Source: Armatimonadetes bacterium Uphvl-Ar1
GTDB lineage: Bacteria > Armatimonadota > Fimbriimonadia > Fimbriimonadales > Fimbriimonadaceae
Length of the DNA stretch: 64,000 nt
Assembly (NCBI GenBank): GCA_002162075.1
Contig: CP021423.1
Coordinates: 248,001-312,000 of the forward strand
Reading direction: 5' to 3'
The notes below the pieces were generated by a model. That model did no database searches. It was not told where the DNA came from and worked only from the letters and a program-made list of their open reading frames with translations. The number at the start of each line of letters is the position of its first letter. The first letter of the stretch is position 1. This document shows positions 8,717-55,018 of this stretch, one piece after another. A program made the position numbers and the translations under genes.

Positions 8717-9280
8717 ATGGACTGGTCGGACTATTTCAATGCAGCAAAGGAGTTGGGGCCGAATCCGTTCTATTCGATCTTAGAGCGATATGTAGGAGAT
8801 GAGCCGGGAAGAGTTGTAGAATTAGGGTTTGGTGCGGGGGCGGGGATTGGATGGTGGTTAGATCGGGGCTGGGAAGTTTTGGGAGTTGACGCGGATCAGG
8901 GAATGTGTGACCATGCACGGTCGATATATGGGGATCGAGTGGAGGTTATCCAGGCAGGATATAGTGATGTTGACTGGGGGGAAGTTGATGTTGTTGCGGC
9001 AGTATTCGCTTTGTTTTTTGCGGGAGAGACTGAATTTTGGGCAACTTGGTCAAAAATTAGAGAGCATGTATTGAGTGGAGCATTATTTGGTGGACAGTTG
9101 ATTGGGCCAGGTGATGATTGGGCGGTTGATCATATATCGGTAACGCGAGAGCAGGTTGAGGAGATGTGTTTGGGACTGAACGTTCTTTATTTTGAGGACG
9201 TTCGTCGCCGGGGGAAGACCGTTTTTGGAGCAGAGAAGGAGTGGCATGTTTTCCACTTGGTTTTGGGGCCAGGACGTTAG
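8717..9280 (+). CDS. Class I SAM-dependent methyltransferase
   Basis: About 187 residues with motif I VVELGFGAGAGIGWW near residue 33 and the acidic end of strand 2 GVDADQGM near residue 56, the SAM-binding hallmarks of Rossmann-fold methyltransferases. Residues 85-110 hold the motif IV region (VDVVAAVFALFF). The substrate is unknown; the compact size and sequence recall TehB/UbiE-like small-molecule methyltransferases. Start ATG 8717 lies just after the comEA stop. Last gene of the purE-folD run. Confidence 0.8.
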   Translation: MDWSDYFNAAKELGPNPFYSILERYVGDEPGRVVELGFGAGAGIGWWLDRGWEVLGVDADQGMCDHARSIYGDRVEVIQAGYSDVDWGEVDVVAAVFALFFAGETEFWATWSKIREHVLSGALFGGQLIGPGDDWAVDHISVTREQVEEMCLGLNVLYFEDVRRRGKTVFGAEKEWHVFHLVLGPGR

Positions 9281-10883
9281 TTTTCTCCGGTGATCAGTCC
9301 GGAATAGCGGCCTTTGAGAATGAGTTCGACCTGGGGATTGCTCTTATATTGATCAAAGGTGTGATCGCGTCCGATGATGAGGGCGTTTGAGGGGAGTTCG
9401 TTCTCGTAGGGGAGGATGGGTTTTCGGTAGTAGAAGCCAAGGGAGGGGTGGCCGGAATCGTCGAGTTGGAATTTGATTTCCGGGTCTGAGCCAGCGGGGC
9501 GCCCGAGATTGGCTTCGTAGAGTTGGAGATTTTTTTCGCGGGCCATGATCGCGAACGATTGGACGTCTCGGAAGCGGTCGTTCCAGTATTTTGAGAAGGC
9601 GAATTGGGCGAGGGCGAGGGTTGTGATGGAGGTGATGGCGGCGATTTTCAGGGCCCTGTCGAAGCCGGGTTCATTGCCAATTGAACTAAACCGGCCCCCT
9701 CCTAAGTCCTCCCCCTGAGGGGGAGGGGGGACGACATTTTGACTAGCACTTTTTTGATTTTCAGATACTGACCCCTCCCCATCCAAGTTTGCAGATTCTG
9801 TAGACAAGTTGACCTCACCCCCTAACCCCTCTCCATTGAAACGGAGAGGGGGAACTCCTTTCCAAATGAAAATTTGGGGTGGCGGGTGAGGAGAGCGTGG
9901 GCGATGAGGATTGCGAGAGGTGGGATCGAAGGGAGGATGTAATGAACGAGTTTGGTGCCAGAGATTGTAAAAAATGCGAGGGGAACGATAAACCAAATGA
10001 GTGTGTATGTTGCGGCAGAGTTGGGGGACTGGTTATGGTTTTTGGTCTGCCAGAACTTGGCGCGAATTGCACCACCGATCCAAGGAGCAGTGGCTAGGAG
10101 GAGAACGGCGGGAAAATAGATGGGGTGGACCCATGCAGGGACGGTATGGGCTTTATCGCCGCCGGCAAAGCGACCGATGTTTTGTTCGATCAGGAATTTA
10201 TCGATAAAAAACTGTCCGTTGACGAGATAGGCAGGAACGTACCAAGTGCTGACGACGGCAACGAGGAGGGCAGTTCCAACAATCCAGTATTTTCTGAATT
10301 CGGGTCGGAACTGGGGTAGGCGAGCGAAGGTGAAGATGCCGATGAGGCCAAAAAGGACGAGAGCGACCGGGCCCTTGGCTAGAACGGCGAACCCGAGCGC
10401 AGTGGCGGTTATGAGTCGGAGCTTTTGGTTGCCTTGGAGACTTTCGTAGAAAGTGGTGATGGCGATGACGAGGCAGAGATTGAGGGCGGCATCGGTCATC
10501 ATCATTCGACCAATCGCGACGACGAGGAGGCTGGAGGAATAGACGAGGCAACTGACAATGGCGGTTGATTCGCTGAATTGGCGTTTGGCGAAACGGTAGA
10601 TCAGCCAGATGGTGACCATCGTGCAAAGAAATGAGGGGAGCCGTGCACCGAACTCGTTGGGCAATAGGGCAACGGTTGGCATTGCGAGCCAGTAACTGAG
10701 GATGGGCTTTTCAAACCACGGAATCCCGTTGAGGGTGGGGGTGAGCCAGTCGCCTCGGCGGAGCATATCCATGGTGACGGCTCCGTAGAACCCTTCGTCG
10801 AGATCGGAGAGGCCGTAAGTCCAGAATCCGAGGTAGGGGAGGATGCAGAGGACGTACCAGTACTGGCGAAGAATTTTCTGCAT
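9277..10883 (-). CDS. ArnT/PMT-like membrane glycosyltransferase, with a frame break and two translated palindromic repeats
   Basis: A GT-C fold polyprenyl-phosphate-sugar transferase (PMT/ArnT family). The N-terminal part has LSDLDEGFYGAVTMDMLRRGDW (residues about 24-45), where the DE pair is the catalytic acidic motif, and PWFEKPILSYWL, followed by many membrane helices. The first frame stops at 9822; the C-terminal soluble part (DRFRDVQSFAIMAREKN... to 9277) is in the -1 frame. Adding one base to GGGG at 9876-9879 joins them to a protein of about 535 residues. The joined frame then reads straight through two palindromic DNA repeats (9812-9853 and 9694-9732), giving Gly/Pro-rich insertions such as PPLRFNGEGLGGEV and PPPPQGEDLGGG between the last membrane helices and the C-terminal domain. 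It starts six bases after the Ppx/GppA gene. Confidence 0.8.
9694..9732. repeat. Palindromic repeat inside the arnT-like gene (type CCTCCCCCTGAGGGGGAGG)
   Basis: CCTCCCCC-TGA-GGGGGAGG with flanking C- and G-rich arms. It is read in frame within the glycosyltransferase once the upstream one-base break is corrected. Confidence 0.75.
9812..9853. repeat. Palindromic repeat inside the arnT-like gene (type ACCTCACCCC...CTCTCC...GGAGAG)
   Basis: Contains ACCTCACCCCCTAACCCCT and CTCTCCATTGAAACGGAGAG. Near-identical copies lie at 47150-47188 and 48153-48197, where they sit between genes. Confidence 0.85.
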
Positions 10884-17516: not shown

Positions 17517-19448
17517 GTGAAACTGTTAACGAAGTCTCGATTGGGCGGGCGCATTGCCCGCATGGGTGCCCTTTTGGTGGCAGCCGCGACCTTTGGATTA
17601 GTCGTTCCGGCGACGGCCCAGATTCAGCAAACGGATCGCTATGCGGTGACCGATTTTGCGGTGAAGGTGCCGAATGCGGACGTTGATCTTGGAGTGGAGG
17701 CTCGCGACAAGGTTCGCGATTCCTTATCTCAAGTTTTTGGACGGAATCGTGAGACGGTTCCGACGGATCAAGTCACTCGTGCGATGCGCGATTTGGGTTT
17801 GATGCCGCCTGTGACTCGCGCTGCAGATTTGTTGCGTTTGGGTGATGCGGTTGATGCTCAGTATGTTGTGACGGGTGAAGTTGCTAACTGGCGGATCGTT
17901 GAGGTCAGCGGTGGGCGACAGGCACAAGTTTTGATGGTTGTTCAAGTCCGCAACGTATCCGGCGGTGTTCCGGTGAATGCGGCGGTTGCAACGGGTAAAT
18001 CTGCTCCTCGAGCGGGCGACACAAGCGACGCGACGTTGCTTGCTGATGCTTTGACGGATGGTGCTTTCCAAGTCGTTAACGACATGGAAGGGAAGATTTT
18101 GCCGAAAGCGACAGTTTTGAATACGACCGATTCACGAATTCTGTTGAACCAAGGAGCTCGATCGGGCATGAAAGAAGGGATGAAAGTCATCTTCTTGCGC
18201 GGTGCTGAGCAGGTTGCAGAAGGGGTTGTGAACAGTGTTGACGCAGATTCTGCTTGGGTTCGAGTTACTCGACAGGTGAAGGGTGTTCGACCTGGTGATT
18301 CCACGCAAACCATTGTTGATGTTCCGGTTTTGGCCGCGAATCCATGGGGTGGTGACGGTGCGCCGAAAACACGTGCTTCACGATCTTCCGGTGGGAATCA
18401 GGCACTGTTCTCCTTGTTGCTCCTCTTGGTTATCTTGGGCTTCTTGTTCCTTGGCGGACGTGGAAGCAGTAACGAAGTGGTCGGCAATGTCAAGGCGGAG
18501 GCGACAACGCCTTCGATTTCACCGGGTGTCCGGGTGAGCTGGACTCTCGACGCATTTGCACGAGGGAATAACGAAGGTCCTTATCGCTGGCAGGTTTGGC
18601 GACAGGGTGTGAATACGAACCCGGTTGCGGTTGCTTTGGCTCCGGCAAGCTTTGTGATCGACGATACTCTGGGAACATTTGCTCCGGCGAGTGGCAGTCA
18701 GTGGGATGACTTTGGTGGCATCTCGGGTGGAAACAGCTGTATCAATGAAGCACCTCCGGGTGGCGACGATCCGGCAGCGGCTCCGCTTGCTATTGGTGTT
18801 CCACAGCGATACAGTGTCGAAATGGTTTACCGAGTTGATCCGAACTCTTTGCCGTTCCCGCCTAATGGCGGCGGTGGCGGCGGTGGAACCACGGGTACGA
18901 CAGGTACGACTGGTACGACTGGTGGTACGGGTACGACGGGTGGTACCGGCACGACCGGGACAACTGGTGGTACTGGTACGACTGGTACGACTGGTGGCAC
19001 AGGCACGACCGGGACAACTGGTGGCGGTGGAGCGCAGTATTGCTACTTCGTTTCCGTTCGAGTTCCGGCTTCTGGTCAGGCAACTCCGTTGAACCGACCT
19101 CAGCTCACGGCTCCGACTGACGGTGCTAACGACACGGGTAACACTGTGTTCTCCTTCCAATCGGTTCGAGGGCTTGATCCTTCAGTACCGCTGGAATACG
19201 CAGTTCAACTGTCTCCTGATCCGGTCTTTGGTGGTCAATCTGTGACTCTTGGTGAGTTCATTGATACGGCGACTCCGAATGCGCAGGCTTTGGCGACACA
19301 GCCGGTTGCAACGGGTACGTTGTTCCCGACTTCAACGACTGTGTATTGGCGCATCGGTGTCCGCAACGTCCAAGACGTTCCGGGTCCGGTTGCTGATAGT
19401 TCCGGCAAGCGCTACATTTGGAGTGGTGCGCGCCGCATCACGCGATAA
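17517..19448 (+). CDS. Exported CsgG-like protein with Gly-Thr tandem repeats
   Basis: About 643 residues from GTG 17517 (GAGGAGG ten bases upstream). A signal peptide (residues about 1-34, ending PATAQ) is followed by a domain reading YAVTDFAVKVPN, VRDSLSQVFGRN and YVVTGEVANWRIV, like the CsgG/FlgT-type lipoprotein fold used in curli export. Next come a region that could bind a substrate (MKEGMKVIFLRG), a hydrophobic helix (SLLLLLVILGFLFLGG, near residue 300), an Ig/FN3-like region (GVRVSWTLDAF), a block of about 48 residues of GT/GTT repeats, and a final beta-rich domain with VYWRIGVRN. The fold assignment is by motif only. First of four exported proteins in a row. Confidence 0.7.
   Translation: MKLLTKSRLGGRIARMGALLVAAATFGLVVPATAQIQQTDRYAVTDFAVKVPNADVDLGVEARDKVRDSLSQVFGRNRETVPTDQVTRAMRDLGLMPPVTRAADLLRLGDAVDAQYVVTGEVANWRIVEVSGGRQAQVLMVVQVRNVSGGVPVNAAVATGKSAPRAGDTSDATLLADALTDGAFQVVNDMEGKILPKATVLNTTDSRILLNQGARSGMKEGMKVIFLRGAEQVAEGVVNSVDADSAWVRVTRQVKGVRPGDSTQTIVDVPVLAANPWGGDGAPKTRASRSSGGNQALFSLLLLLVILGFLFLGGRGSSNEVVGNVKAEATTPSISPGVRVSWTLDAFARGNNEGPYRWQVWRQGVNTNPVAVALAPASFVIDDTLGTFAPASGSQWDDFGGISGGNSCINEAPPGGDDPAAAPLAIGVPQRYSVEMVYRVDPNSLPFPPNGGGGGGGTTGTTGTTGTTGGTGTTGGTGTTGTTGGTGTTGTTGGTGTTGTTGGGGAQYCYFVSVRVPASGQATPLNRPQLTAPTDGANDTGNTVFSFQSVRGLDPSVPLEYAVQLSPDPVFGGQSVTLGEFIDTATPNAQALATQPVATGTLFPTSTTVYWRIGVRNVQDVPGPVADSSGKRYIWSGARRITR
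18886..19028 (+). repeat. Tandem GGTACGACT-type repeat encoding Gly-Thr-Thr units
   Basis: Irregular tandem 9-base units with ACG/ACT/ACA third-base changes, encoding (G)GTTGTT. Such tracts change length easily and may act as a flexible linker of variable length. Confidence 0.85.
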
Positions 19449-47149: not shown

Positions 47150-47188
47150 GACCTCACCCCCTCTCCATTAAAGCGGGGAGGGGGGAGA
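47150..47188. repeat. Palindromic repeat, copy between PqaA-like gene and queF
   Basis: ACCTCACCCCCTCTCCATTAAAGCGGGGAGGGGGGAG. A shorter version of 48153-48197, lacking the CTAACCCC segment. It lies just past the stop codon of the upstream gene and may also act as a transcript terminator. Confidence 0.8.
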
Positions 47189-48152: not shown

Positions 48153-48197
48153 AACCTCACCCCCTAACCCCCTCTCCATTAAAACGGAGAGGGGGAG
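48153..48197. repeat. Palindromic repeat, copy beside the GHL10 gene stop
   Basis: ACCTCACCCCCTAACCCCCTCTCCATTAAAACGGAGAGGGGG. Same element as 9812-9853, here in its longest and most symmetric form. It lies immediately next to the GHL10 stop codon. Confidence 0.85.
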
Positions 48198-48198
48198 A

Positions 48199-49964
48199 CT
48201 AGAATCCTGTGCCGGGGGCGCCTTCAAATGTTGGGAATGGGGGTTCTCTGAATCCTCGGCGGTCGAAATCGGCGCGTTGGGCGCGGACGGTTTCGAGGAG
48301 GCCAGGGATTTGGTAGGGGGCCCTCTTTTTGGTTCGGAAGGCTTGGGCGAAAGTTGGCCAGAAGTCATCGATGTTATGAGAGAGATCGAAGACCATGACG
48401 CCTTGGGTAGTGGCGGTGGCGGCTTGGAGAGCGGGTTGGATTTTGGCGGGTTCCGGGAAGAAGTCGGAGATCATGATTCCGGCGACGGTCCAGGATTGGT
48501 CTCGGGCGACGCGGTTGGAGAGGATTCCGCCGGCTTCGACGGTTCGTCCGGGAGCGGCACCATTGGCGATGGCTTCGATGACAGTGCCGTTGGGGTAGTA
48601 GCAGCCAGTGATGAGCAAGTCAAGGTTGGCGCCCATGCCCGTTTTTCGGTATGCGTTGGTGAGAAAGGGGAATCCGGCGTTGAGGTCGGGACTGGCGTAG
48701 TTGTTGCCGTATCGCTGGTAATCGCCGTACCAAGAACCGGCATAGATGCCAAAGAGGGCGTCGGGGCGATGATTTTTGACATGGCGGCGGGCTTCGGCGG
48801 TCCAGTTGGTGAGGGTTTGGGCGCGGAAGGTGAGCCAAGCGTCGTAGAGGCGTCCGGGTTGAAGGCGGGGTGTGAGGGATGGAGTATAGGAATAGGTGAA
48901 GACGTCGTCGGGCCAGTTCACTTTTTGATTGACGGCTTTTTCGAAAAGGGATTTTGTGAGATCGGAGAAGTCGGTATCGAGCCCACCATAGCGGAGGCGG
49001 TCGTCGTAGAGGAGGCCGTCTATGTCGTAGTTACCGGCGATTTCATCAATAAAGTCGTAGGTGCGTTGCTGAACCCGCTCGTCGTGGGGGTTCATCATCA
49101 GGGGAACTTGATTTTGGGAGTCCGCGATGCGGACATAGGTGGGTCTGGAGTTGACATTGATTCGGGCGGGATTGAGTCTGATCAGATCATCGGCGGCTTG
49201 ACCAGTGAAAACGAAGAGAGCGAGGCCGTTGAGGTCTTCGGGTTTGGTGTAAGTGAGTTCTCGGATAGCCCTGATTTTTCGACGGTGACGTAGAGGGCAT
49301 TTTCGGGAGCTTTTTCTGGACTCGTGTAGATGGCGATGGGTTTGCTTTCGGTGTTGGCGTCGAGGGTTGGAGAAATTTCGTGGTTCTGCCAGACGGGGAC
49401 AGGGATGTAGCGCACGGTTTGGAGGTCGGGGTTTTCGTACCCCCAGCCGGGCTTGAAGAATTGGTTGTCGGGTTTGCCGAAGTCGCGTTTACCGAAGGAG
49501 TGGCCCTCGGAAAAGGCATTGAGGGCGACAAAGAGGGACAGGTTGTGTTTTTTGGATTCGGTGACGAAGTGCTTGAGGGGGTCGAATCCGGCGGTCATTG
49601 AGGTGGCGCGCCAGGCGGTGATTTGCTCGGTGAGTTTGGAGGGATACATGGTGTATCCGTTGATCGGCTTGACGTCGAAGACGATTGTGTTGAACCCGAC
49701 TTCGGCGGCTTTGGCGCAGAGGGCGGCGATTTTCTCTTCGCTGTTCACGCGACCGAGGTTTGCGGTGGCGTCAACCCAAAGGATACGGGCTTGGAGATCC
49801 ATTCGGGCGGTGGTGGATTGGGCGATACCGTATTTGGCGAGTTGGTGATGGATTTGAACCGGAGGAAGGGCGAGAGGCGCGACGTACTCGAATCGCGATT
49901 CGGTGGAGATTTGGGTAGGGGTGACGTTTTGGGAAAGGAGTAGGGCGGCGATGCCAGTAAGCAT
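48199..49964 (-). CDS. GHL10-type putative glycoside hydrolase, exported (one-base frame break)
   Basis: A (beta/alpha)8-type family (DUF187/GHL10) of predicted glycosidases. From ATG 49964: signal peptide (MLTGIAALLLS), then ILWVDATANLGRVNSEEKIAALC and TIVFDVKPINGYTMYPSKL. The frame breaks at the five-base A/T run 49275-49279: VTVEK plus one base, then IRAIRELTYTKPEDLNGLALFV. The -1 frame carries MNPHDERVQQRTYDFIDEIAGNYDIDGLLYDDRLRYGG (active-region Asp residues near DIDGLLYDD) down to the stop at 48199. About 588 residues. CATAAT lies six bases before ATG 49964, matching the leaderless pattern. The substrate is unknown; probably cell-wall or exopolysaccharide. Confidence 0.82.
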
Positions 49965-52956: not shown

Positions 52957-55018
52957 ATGGACAACCGCTTGCTCTCATTGTTTGTGAGCGGGGTTTTTCT
53001 GGCGGCATTACTTGGTTTAGGTGTTGTTGTGGGGGTGAAGTTTGAGTCTGATCAGAAGAATCGGGTTCGTAGCGACCTTCAGAAATTGGCGACTACAGCG
53101 GCGGAGTTGATTGACCCGGAGAGTCATGCGTTCATTCGTCAATCGGGTGGACTGAACCGGGAAATGGAAAGTCAGCTCTATGATGAAGGTAATGCTGTTT
53201 TGCAGAAGTTTCTTACTTTTCATCCGGAGCTTCGGTACATCTACACACTTTATAGTGACGGCGAAGAGGTTCGATTTGGACTTGACCCGGCAGAGCCGGG
53301 TGATCAGGACGGCGACGGTCGAGATGACAAGGCCTATTGGGGTGAATTATATGATGAGACTACTCCCGCACTTCTATCGAGTTTGAAGCGTGGGATTCCT
53401 AATGTTGAGGATGAACCACACACTGATGAATGGGGACCTTTATGAGTGCTTACGCGCCATTCGTTGACGAAAAGGGCGAGATTGTGGGTGTAGTTGGGAT
53501 CGATGTTACGGCTGATTCTTACTTAAATGCGGTTTCTGTTGGACGCAGGTTCTATGCGGGCTGGTTGATTGTGTCTTTGCTTTTGGCAGGTTGCCTTGGG
53601 CTTTGGAGTATGCGGCTGACTCAGAGAGTTCATCGAGACTTTTTGGGGATGCTTGAAGCAAATCGAATTCTTGAACAATCGAACGAAGAGCTTGCGAATT
53701 TGAATGCACAATTGGATCAACTCGCTCGAACTGACAAGCTCACCGGTGTTTTTAACCGGATGGGATTTTGTTCGGAATTGGAATTGTGTTTAGATGATTT
53801 GGCAGACGGTCAAGAGATTGATTGTGCATTAGCGGTGATGGATCTTGATGGGTTCAAACGTTCTAATGACCATTATGGTCATGCGTTTGGGGATCGTATG
53901 CTGGTGTCGTTTTTGGAGGAGGTGCAATCGCACCTCGGGGATGCCGTAATTGGTCGAATGGGGGGAGATGAGTTTATTGTTCTGATGAAAGGGGAGAATG
54001 CTCTTTATCGGCTTAACTCGGGTTTGGAATCTTTGAGAGAGCGGCTATCCCAGTATCCGGTGATGGTCAGCTTTATGGCCCAGTTTTGTTCGGCAAGTGT
54101 GGGTGTGGTGGGATATTTTGATCGAGCAACTGGGATTGATTTGATGCGTCGGGCGGATATTGCGATGTACGCTGCGAAGGCGAAGGGTCCGGGAAATATT
54201 GTTCAGTATGAGCCTGAAATGGGTGAGGCTTTGGAACGCCGGGTTGAGATGGAGCATGAGCTTCGGATTGCATGGGAGCGGAAACAGTTTTGGATGGCGG
54301 TTCAGCCAATTGTTGATTTGGAACGTGGTCGGGTGATTGCGGGAGAAATGTTGATCCGCTGGACTCGAGAGGATGGGAAGAATGTTTCACCAGCGGAGTT
54401 TATTCCGGTGGCGGAAAGCATGGGGTTGGTGGAAGATATGGGATTGTTTGCGGTGGAGGAAGCGTGTCGGAATTTGGAGCGTTTAGGTCGTGAGTTTCCG
54501 GGTCGGGATATCCATTTGAGTGTGAACATTTCACCGAGGCAGGTGAATAAACCCGACTTTGTTGAGCGCATTGAGGCGATTGTTGATCAGTATTCCATCG
54601 AGTATGGAAGTTTGTGGCTCGAACTTACGGAATCGTCGTTGATTCAAGAGGGGGCGGATGTTTTGGAGAAGCTGACTCGACTTCGGAATATGGGAATCAG
54701 GATTGCTTTGGATGATTTTGGAACGGGTTACTCCTCACTCAGTATGTTGATGGATATTCCACTTGATTGCTTGAAATTGATCGGTCTTTTGTGATGCGGA
54801 TGACAGGAGACAAGCAGAGTGTCGAATTGGTACGGATGATTTTGGAGTTGTCGCGACTGTTGAATTTGGATGTCGTTGCAGAGGGGATTGAGTCGGAGAA
54901 TGAAGTTCGGATTTTGCGCGACATGGGTTGTGAGTGGGGGCAAGGTTTCCATTATTCGAGACCGATTCCGATGGATGAGTTTGTTGATGGTTGTGGGGAT
55001 TACAAAAAAGCTGCATAG
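52957..55018 (+). CDS. Membrane GGDEF-EAL protein with periplasmic sensor (two one-base frame breaks)
   Basis: A cyclic di-GMP turnover protein. From ATG 52957 (AAGGGG upstream; ATG 52912 alternative): membrane helix, periplasmic sensor, then DEWG at 53445, where the frame slips. Adding one G at 53432-53435 gives DEWGTFMSAYAPFVDEKGEIVGVVGIDV, the same sensor end as in the HD-GYP protein. A second helix follows, then GGDEF domain with a GRMGGDEFIVLM active site, then EAL domain with AGEMLIRWTREDG in place of EALLRW. The second break, at 54774-54776, is repaired by one A: CLKIDRSFVMRM. The EVL/EAL Glu is replaced by EML, which leaves Glu, and VNISPRQ, ELTES and DDFGTGYSSL are intact. About 687 residues. 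Confidence 0.88.

Follow-up and report, generated by a model that had tools for sequence, protein, structure and literature searches.

Two families of short palindromic repeats, types A and B, each about 43-47 bp long and rich in C/G runs, occur both between genes and in frame inside protein-coding genes, essential ones among them, of a genome of the Fimbriimonadaceae (Armatimonadota). Comparison of sequences and a structural model make it very probable that these are short, non-autonomous REP-like palindromes that spread through one lineage of the family and survive in genes as tolerated disordered linkers. Both families are found together in an ArnT-like gene of the window, i.e., the whole stretch of 64,000 bases that was analyzed (C1:248001-312000 of the single-contig source genome, G000, of 2,985,450 bases).

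Two palindromic repeats in an ArnT-like gene

The gene for the PMT/ArnT-like glycosyltransferase lies on the minus strand (9277..10883), with its start at about 10883, and has orthologues in 76 of 81 relatives. The nearest of these belong to Fimbriimonadaceae (MAG BC.035, reactor MAG7, ACE_ARM7 and ACE_ARM8), and Pfam recovers the PMT_2 domain in the intact protein of MAG BC.035, the sister genome, with E=1e-17. The initial annotation had placed two palindromic repeats inside this gene, and both are there. The type A copy (9811..9856, minus strand), delimited by family alignment, has the form CCCCCTCTCC-loop-GGAGAGGGG followed by TTAGGGGGTGAGGTC and is read as PLSVSMERG.LGGEV, while the type B copy (9692..9734, minus strand), one of 28 aligned copies, consists of CGTCCCCCCTCCCCCTCAGGGGGAGGACTTAGGAGGGGGC and is read as VPPPPQGEDLGGG. 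The spacer between them (9735..9810, minus strand) codes for about NLSTESANLDGEGSVSENQKSASQNV, and the GGATGGGGAGGGGTCAG within it may be left over from a third family of repeats. Rfam, searched with 9600-9950, returned no match at E up to 1.

As assembled, the gene occupies two frames that meet inside the type A repeat. The N-terminal part (9826-10883) enters the repeat and ends there at a TAG ('...SVSMERG*'), and the C-terminal part (9277 to about 9825) runs on from the remainder of A across the spacer and B. The break coincides with a C/G run (9826..9829, minus strand) that has four C in place of the five seen in the other A copies (CCCCCTNNCCCCCTCTCC). Since the missing C alone explains the shift, restoring the run to its common length yields a continuous ArnT-like frame, and the proposal that the frame crosses both repeats after correction of one base is borne out directly by the sister genome. 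In MAG BC.035 (G006), a metagenome assembly independent of the source genome, the orthologue on contig PNMZ01000009.1 (93% protein identity) is a single open frame through both repeats (...LTRHPKFSTGMELPLSVSMERGPGGEVNLSSESANLGGEGSGVENQKSPGQNVVSPPPQGEDLGGGSLRSIGNEPGLDRALK...), with 614 aa from stop to stop and a protein of 535 aa.

Insertion, selection and predicted structure

The segment carrying the repeats is not a conserved part of the protein in relatives. At the insert site, congeners further removed show TRHSKFLAQETAEPQPNTTGLDRLIK or SRHPKPRQIDSWISQ, with a linker of about 0-13 residues replacing the segment in G007 (L073) and in G003 and G005 (L074 and L075), and hence the segment is an insertion. 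Both inserts are common to the source genome and MAG BC.035 and therefore predate the split of the two species. Between window and sister, differences at the three codon positions number 18/8/99 in the N-terminal part, 10/6/10 in the insert and 9/2/29 in the C-terminal part. By this measure, the flanks are under purifying selection as protein and the insert apparently not. Taken over all positions, the insert diverges at 26 of 191 sites (13.6%), less than the third positions of its flanks do, and some constraint or gene conversion may therefore act on the repeat DNA itself.

We modeled the sister protein with AlphaFold2 together with ten homologues (mean pLDDT 75, pTM 0.78). Residues 337-402 have a pLDDT below 50, with no regular secondary structure after residue 339, and the insert, predicted to be a disordered loop, sits between helices 313-334 and 406-437. 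From the fold family, these would be the last two membrane helices ahead of the C-terminal domain. This refines the position first suggested for the insert, between the last membrane helices and the C-terminal domain, to a loop between the penultimate and the last predicted helix, just before that domain.

Repeat families in the genome and its relatives

The coding-strand consensus is CCCCCTCTCCGTTTtAATGGAGAGGGGGttAGGGGGTGAGGTc for type A and CCCCCTCCCCCTctGGGGGAGGACTTAGGAGGGGGCaa for type B, with CGTC or a variant before many B copies. As DNA, the type A consensus hairpin has an energy of -11.5 kcal/mol and is significantly more stable than shuffled sequences (z -4.6); the type B hairpin also folds, with a z of -0.9 against shuffles that is not significant. 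Pattern searches allowing three mismatches over 2.99 Mb found 19 sites for A and 22 for B against none for the reversed control of each, which excludes chance for both families. For an 18-base B pattern the reversed control is uninformative, the element being nearly the same backwards, and the zero control for B is that of a longer pattern.

The copy numbers below come from a census based on pattern searches and sequence stretches, rather than on gene-by-gene annotation of the whole genome. Type A has 22 copies in the source genome, 14 in G006, six in G003, three in G005 and none in G001, G002, G004 and G007, and its pattern is common in some genomes of the order, with 122 matches in G071. Type B has 28 copies in the source genome (30 with looser matching), ten in G006 and few elsewhere. 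A third class, CCCTCCCC-loop-GGGGAGGG, is present 48 times in the source genome, 54 times in G006, 36 in G003, 28 in G005, 20 in G004 and three in G007, and is absent from G001 and G002. The repeat classes have a common layout, a C-rich hairpin followed by a spaced second G run, and, judging from their sequences, several of them could form G-quadruplexes.

The initial annotation reported both element types again between genes at 47150 and 48153. Both sites are intergenic type A copies (47150..47188 and 48153..48199, minus strand), the first being eight bases (CCTGACCC) shorter than its sister counterpart, and type B has a single copy in the window. Elsewhere in the genome, direct type B pairs stand exactly 69 bases (23 codons) apart both in and out of genes (G000:C1:815715/815784, 816114/816183, 816887/816956 and 812389/812458), which suggests that they form a dimer moved or duplicated in one piece, with the frame kept. 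A further repeat of the source genome, TGAGATTCCGGGTCACGCCCGGAATGACGA, whose core occurs at eight places in the 200 kb searched, resembles the CGTC REPs of other bacteria. The window also has a nine-base tandem repeat at 18867-19039 that codes for a Gly/Thr-rich sequence and differs from the sister by 9-base lengths.

Host genes and choice of frame

A copy was counted as in-gene by frames that span it, alignment with orthologues and the Pfam domains of the ORF around it; codon-usage scoring of the genes around every copy was dropped in favor of these as too weak (78% per 150-nt window). Short frames through copies that had no homology support (e.g., 1505784 and 2149595) were left out of the count, as were copies just 5' of probable start codons (of HemW, DNRLRE-like and HEAT-like ORFs, named by eye). 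On this basis, 4 of the 22 type A and 12 of about 30 type B copies of the source genome lie in genes. The type A hosts are PheT, ArgS, an FHA-domain protein and the ArnT-like gene. Type B copies are found in the ArnT-like gene (one), the gene of the CCA-adding enzyme (six, of which two separate a DUF559 domain from the CCA domains), an ADP-ribosylglycohydrolase-like gene (two, one of them decayed), PxpB (two) and PxpC (one). In G006, A occurs in the ArnT-like, GNAT and PxpB genes and B in the ArnT-like, CCA and ADP-ribosylglycohydrolase genes. In both species the CCA gene and an upstream DUF559 gene make up one long frame via in-frame repeats (L175, G000:C1:815700-818000; L202, G006:C2; 750 aa in G006), which could reflect either a fusion or a stopless read-through.

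In PheT, ArgS and the CCA enzyme, the loop concerned is either free of inserts in relatives or occupied by another repeat family. The PheT loop is without insert in G003 and G005, carries type A in the source genome and a different element (LSPSLGRGGGGV) in G006; the ArgS loop before the DALR domain has A in the source genome and a phase variant of it in G003, whereas G006 has a different family there (SLPIGEGLREG) and G005 is empty. The inserts of the FHA and ADP-ribosylglycohydrolase ORFs fall between Pfam domains.

Three to five of the six frames are stop-free in the in-gene copies tested, and one frame and polarity is used. For type A this is PLSVxxERGxGGEV or a close variant in six of six genes, and for type B PPPPxGEDLGGG at seven of seven sites in five genes (for PxpC, the frame continuing into the downstream domain). 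If all open frames were equally likely, the probability of such uniformity would be about 0.001 for A (six genes) and 0.0002 for B (seven sites), or about 0.004 when B is counted per gene (five genes). The phase variants of A in the ArgS of G003 and G006 (PPLRxNGEG..GGEV) depart from this frame in the hairpin half and stand outside the frame count. That one frame is used though three to five are open suggests that selection acts on the character of the peptide, beyond the absence of stops. The suggestion that a length in multiples of three and the frame polarity permit survival agrees with the copies left intact in the sister, but a lack of stops is not enough to account for the use of one of three to five open frames at the sites tested.

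Mechanism and alternative explanations

We infer that the extended proteins are read through the repeats and, from copy number and the differing occupancy between genomes, that the repeats are mobile. They would be mobilized in trans by an enzyme and insert roughly at random, with most insertions in genes being lost and harmful ones removed by selection. Survival would require a site, orientation and phase that together yield a hydrophilic peptide, free of stops and rich in Gly/Pro/Glu, within a surface loop or linker that tolerates it; such a peptide would be near-neutral and functionless in itself, and the ArnT-like enzyme would work despite its insert. Among the RAYT-like genes examined at loci of the source genome, G003 and G017, we found no partner transposase for A or B. 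Y1_Tnp genes are present in 40 of 61 relatives, some of them no more than 0.3-1.5 kb from an A copy, and a pairing of RAYT with type A was considered; it was not supported, as the RAYT-like gene at the loci in the source genome, G003 and G017 is flanked by its own, different repeat. The other Y1_Tnp genes inspected close to A copies likewise carry repeats of another type. In the source genome, the RAYT-like Y1_Tnp gene at G000:C1:958700-959600 (L158; C1:959031) is flanked by the palindrome CATTGGTC(A/T)CAGACCAATG or close variants, and the two seem to form a REP-RAYT pair of their own.

The frame break admits two other readings. If the window gene were a real pseudogene, invaded by repeats, the one-base deletion in A would cost the enzyme its last membrane helix and C-terminal domain; the assembled frame is indeed broken, and within the repeat. 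Yet the C-terminal part shows no relaxation in its codon-position differences, and with eight synonymous and two non-synonymous changes on the source-genome branch it has not decayed and was selected until recently or still is, although a very recent break would look alike. Moreover, over the 58-kb sister contig the window has eight single-base G/C-run deletions at well-aligned places (9823, 12373, 13694, 16755, 37257, 40776, 46863 and 47942) and the sister none, the pattern expected from homopolymer under-calling. We therefore consider the break to be probably an assembly error in a G run, to which the source assembly seems prone, and a pseudogene unlikely. One more single-base deletion relative to the sister is at 53435; the set falls nearly entirely in G runs, in some cases with frames shorter than those of the sister. 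The repeats could instead be slippage switches, turning genes on and off by phase variation: runs of 5-7 G or C such as theirs are prone to slip, and the CCA, PxpB and PxpC frames of the source genome are likewise broken inside repeats. This is very improbable, given that one-base G-run deletions also occur outside repeats in the source assembly, that one of the hosts, the CCA enzyme, should not be lost without great harm, and that the ArnT, CCA and PxpB copies are in frame in the sister. In practice, homopolymer errors combined with gene callers will make repeat-bearing genes look like pseudogenes.

Other readings concern the peptides rather than the break. That they are ordinary low-complexity Gly/Pro linkers, alike to the intergenic repeats by convergence, fits their flexible-linker composition, but has next to no probability in view of the DNA-level match over about 37-47 bases, palindrome included, to many non-genic copies and the empty reversed controls. 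A lineage that recruits its repeats to supply flexible loops serving a useful function, i.e., selected domestic linkers, would account for the retention of inserts by both species in ArnT, CCA, ADP-ribosylglycohydrolase and PxpB, for the one frame used and for the several copies in some loops; against this, the ArnT insert has no bias to synonymous change, and relatives do without the insert or carry different repeat peptides at the same loop, leaving it quite improbable. Somewhat less doubtful, though still on the unlikely side, is the idea that different palindrome families land repeatedly in certain loops of housekeeping proteins, inserting independently, in one frame, in several species of the genus. 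If true, it would amount to lineage-wide, ongoing decoration of proteins by mobile DNA, via a targeting mechanism or a benefit of longer disordered linkers. We favor the account of tolerated REP-like insertions.

Comparison with known palindromic elements

The palindromic elements of Rickettsia (RPE-1 to RPE-10) and Wolbachia occur in frame in many unrelated protein genes; RPEs insert in solvent-exposed parts, and different RPE groups can be close together in orthologues (PMC3767692, PMC10969869, PMC2229807). The analogy with RPEs drawn in the initial annotation fits as one of mechanism (in-frame inserts in loops of housekeeping genes, mostly in one frame). In both cases palindromes lie in frame in genes of unrelated function, here ArnT-like, PheT, ArgS, CCA, FHA, ADP-ribosylglycohydrolase, PxpB, PxpC and GNAT. 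PheT is a host in both, that of R. japonica carrying a palindromic insert (PMC3767692), and the ArnT-like insert is likewise placed in a part predicted to be disordered. In contrast, the RPE hosts are obligate intracellular Alphaproteobacteria (Rickettsiales), and typical RPEs are 100-150 bp, as against about 43-47 bp of C/G-run-rich sequence for A and B, a comparison made by length and description.

The intragenic GTAG/CGTC REPs are hairpins of 20-40 bp that are mostly intergenic, sometimes in frame and often grouped, with hosts including tRNA synthetases and repair genes in Opitutus terrae, Xanthomonas, Thauera, Rickettsia conorii and others; the survey describing them does not mention Armatimonadota (Di Nocera et al. 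2013; PMC3733652). Types A and B resemble them in being short hairpins with a common consensus and many copies. However, REPs seldom overlap coding regions, unlike the in-gene fractions seen here; the consensus has no GTAG, type A ends with neither a GTAG nor a CGTC tag, and among the loci examined no RAYT gene is flanked by A or B. CGTC REPs are defined by a CGTC tag, an 8-9 bp stem that almost always starts with AT, and a CCA tail (PMC3733652). Many B copies are preceded by CGTC, CGTT or CGCC, but their stem is C/G-rich with no AT at its base and their tail varies. ERIC/RU-1 and the 107-bp Correia element (Delihas; PMC2229807), with about 107-127 bp, terminal inverted repeats and target-site duplication, are also small non-autonomous elements making in-frame fusions, but are larger.

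A literature search that left most subscription journals outside its coverage found no report of in-gene palindromes from Armatimonadota. Elements of this kind are thus already known, best from Rickettsia but also from Wolbachia and the intragenic REPs. What appears to be new is the phylum, the range of housekeeping hosts and the repeat families, which seem unrelated to those described before. As several congeners have been sequenced, some carrying inserts and others not, it is possible to trace gene by gene how repeats insert, which frame they take and how they are lost.
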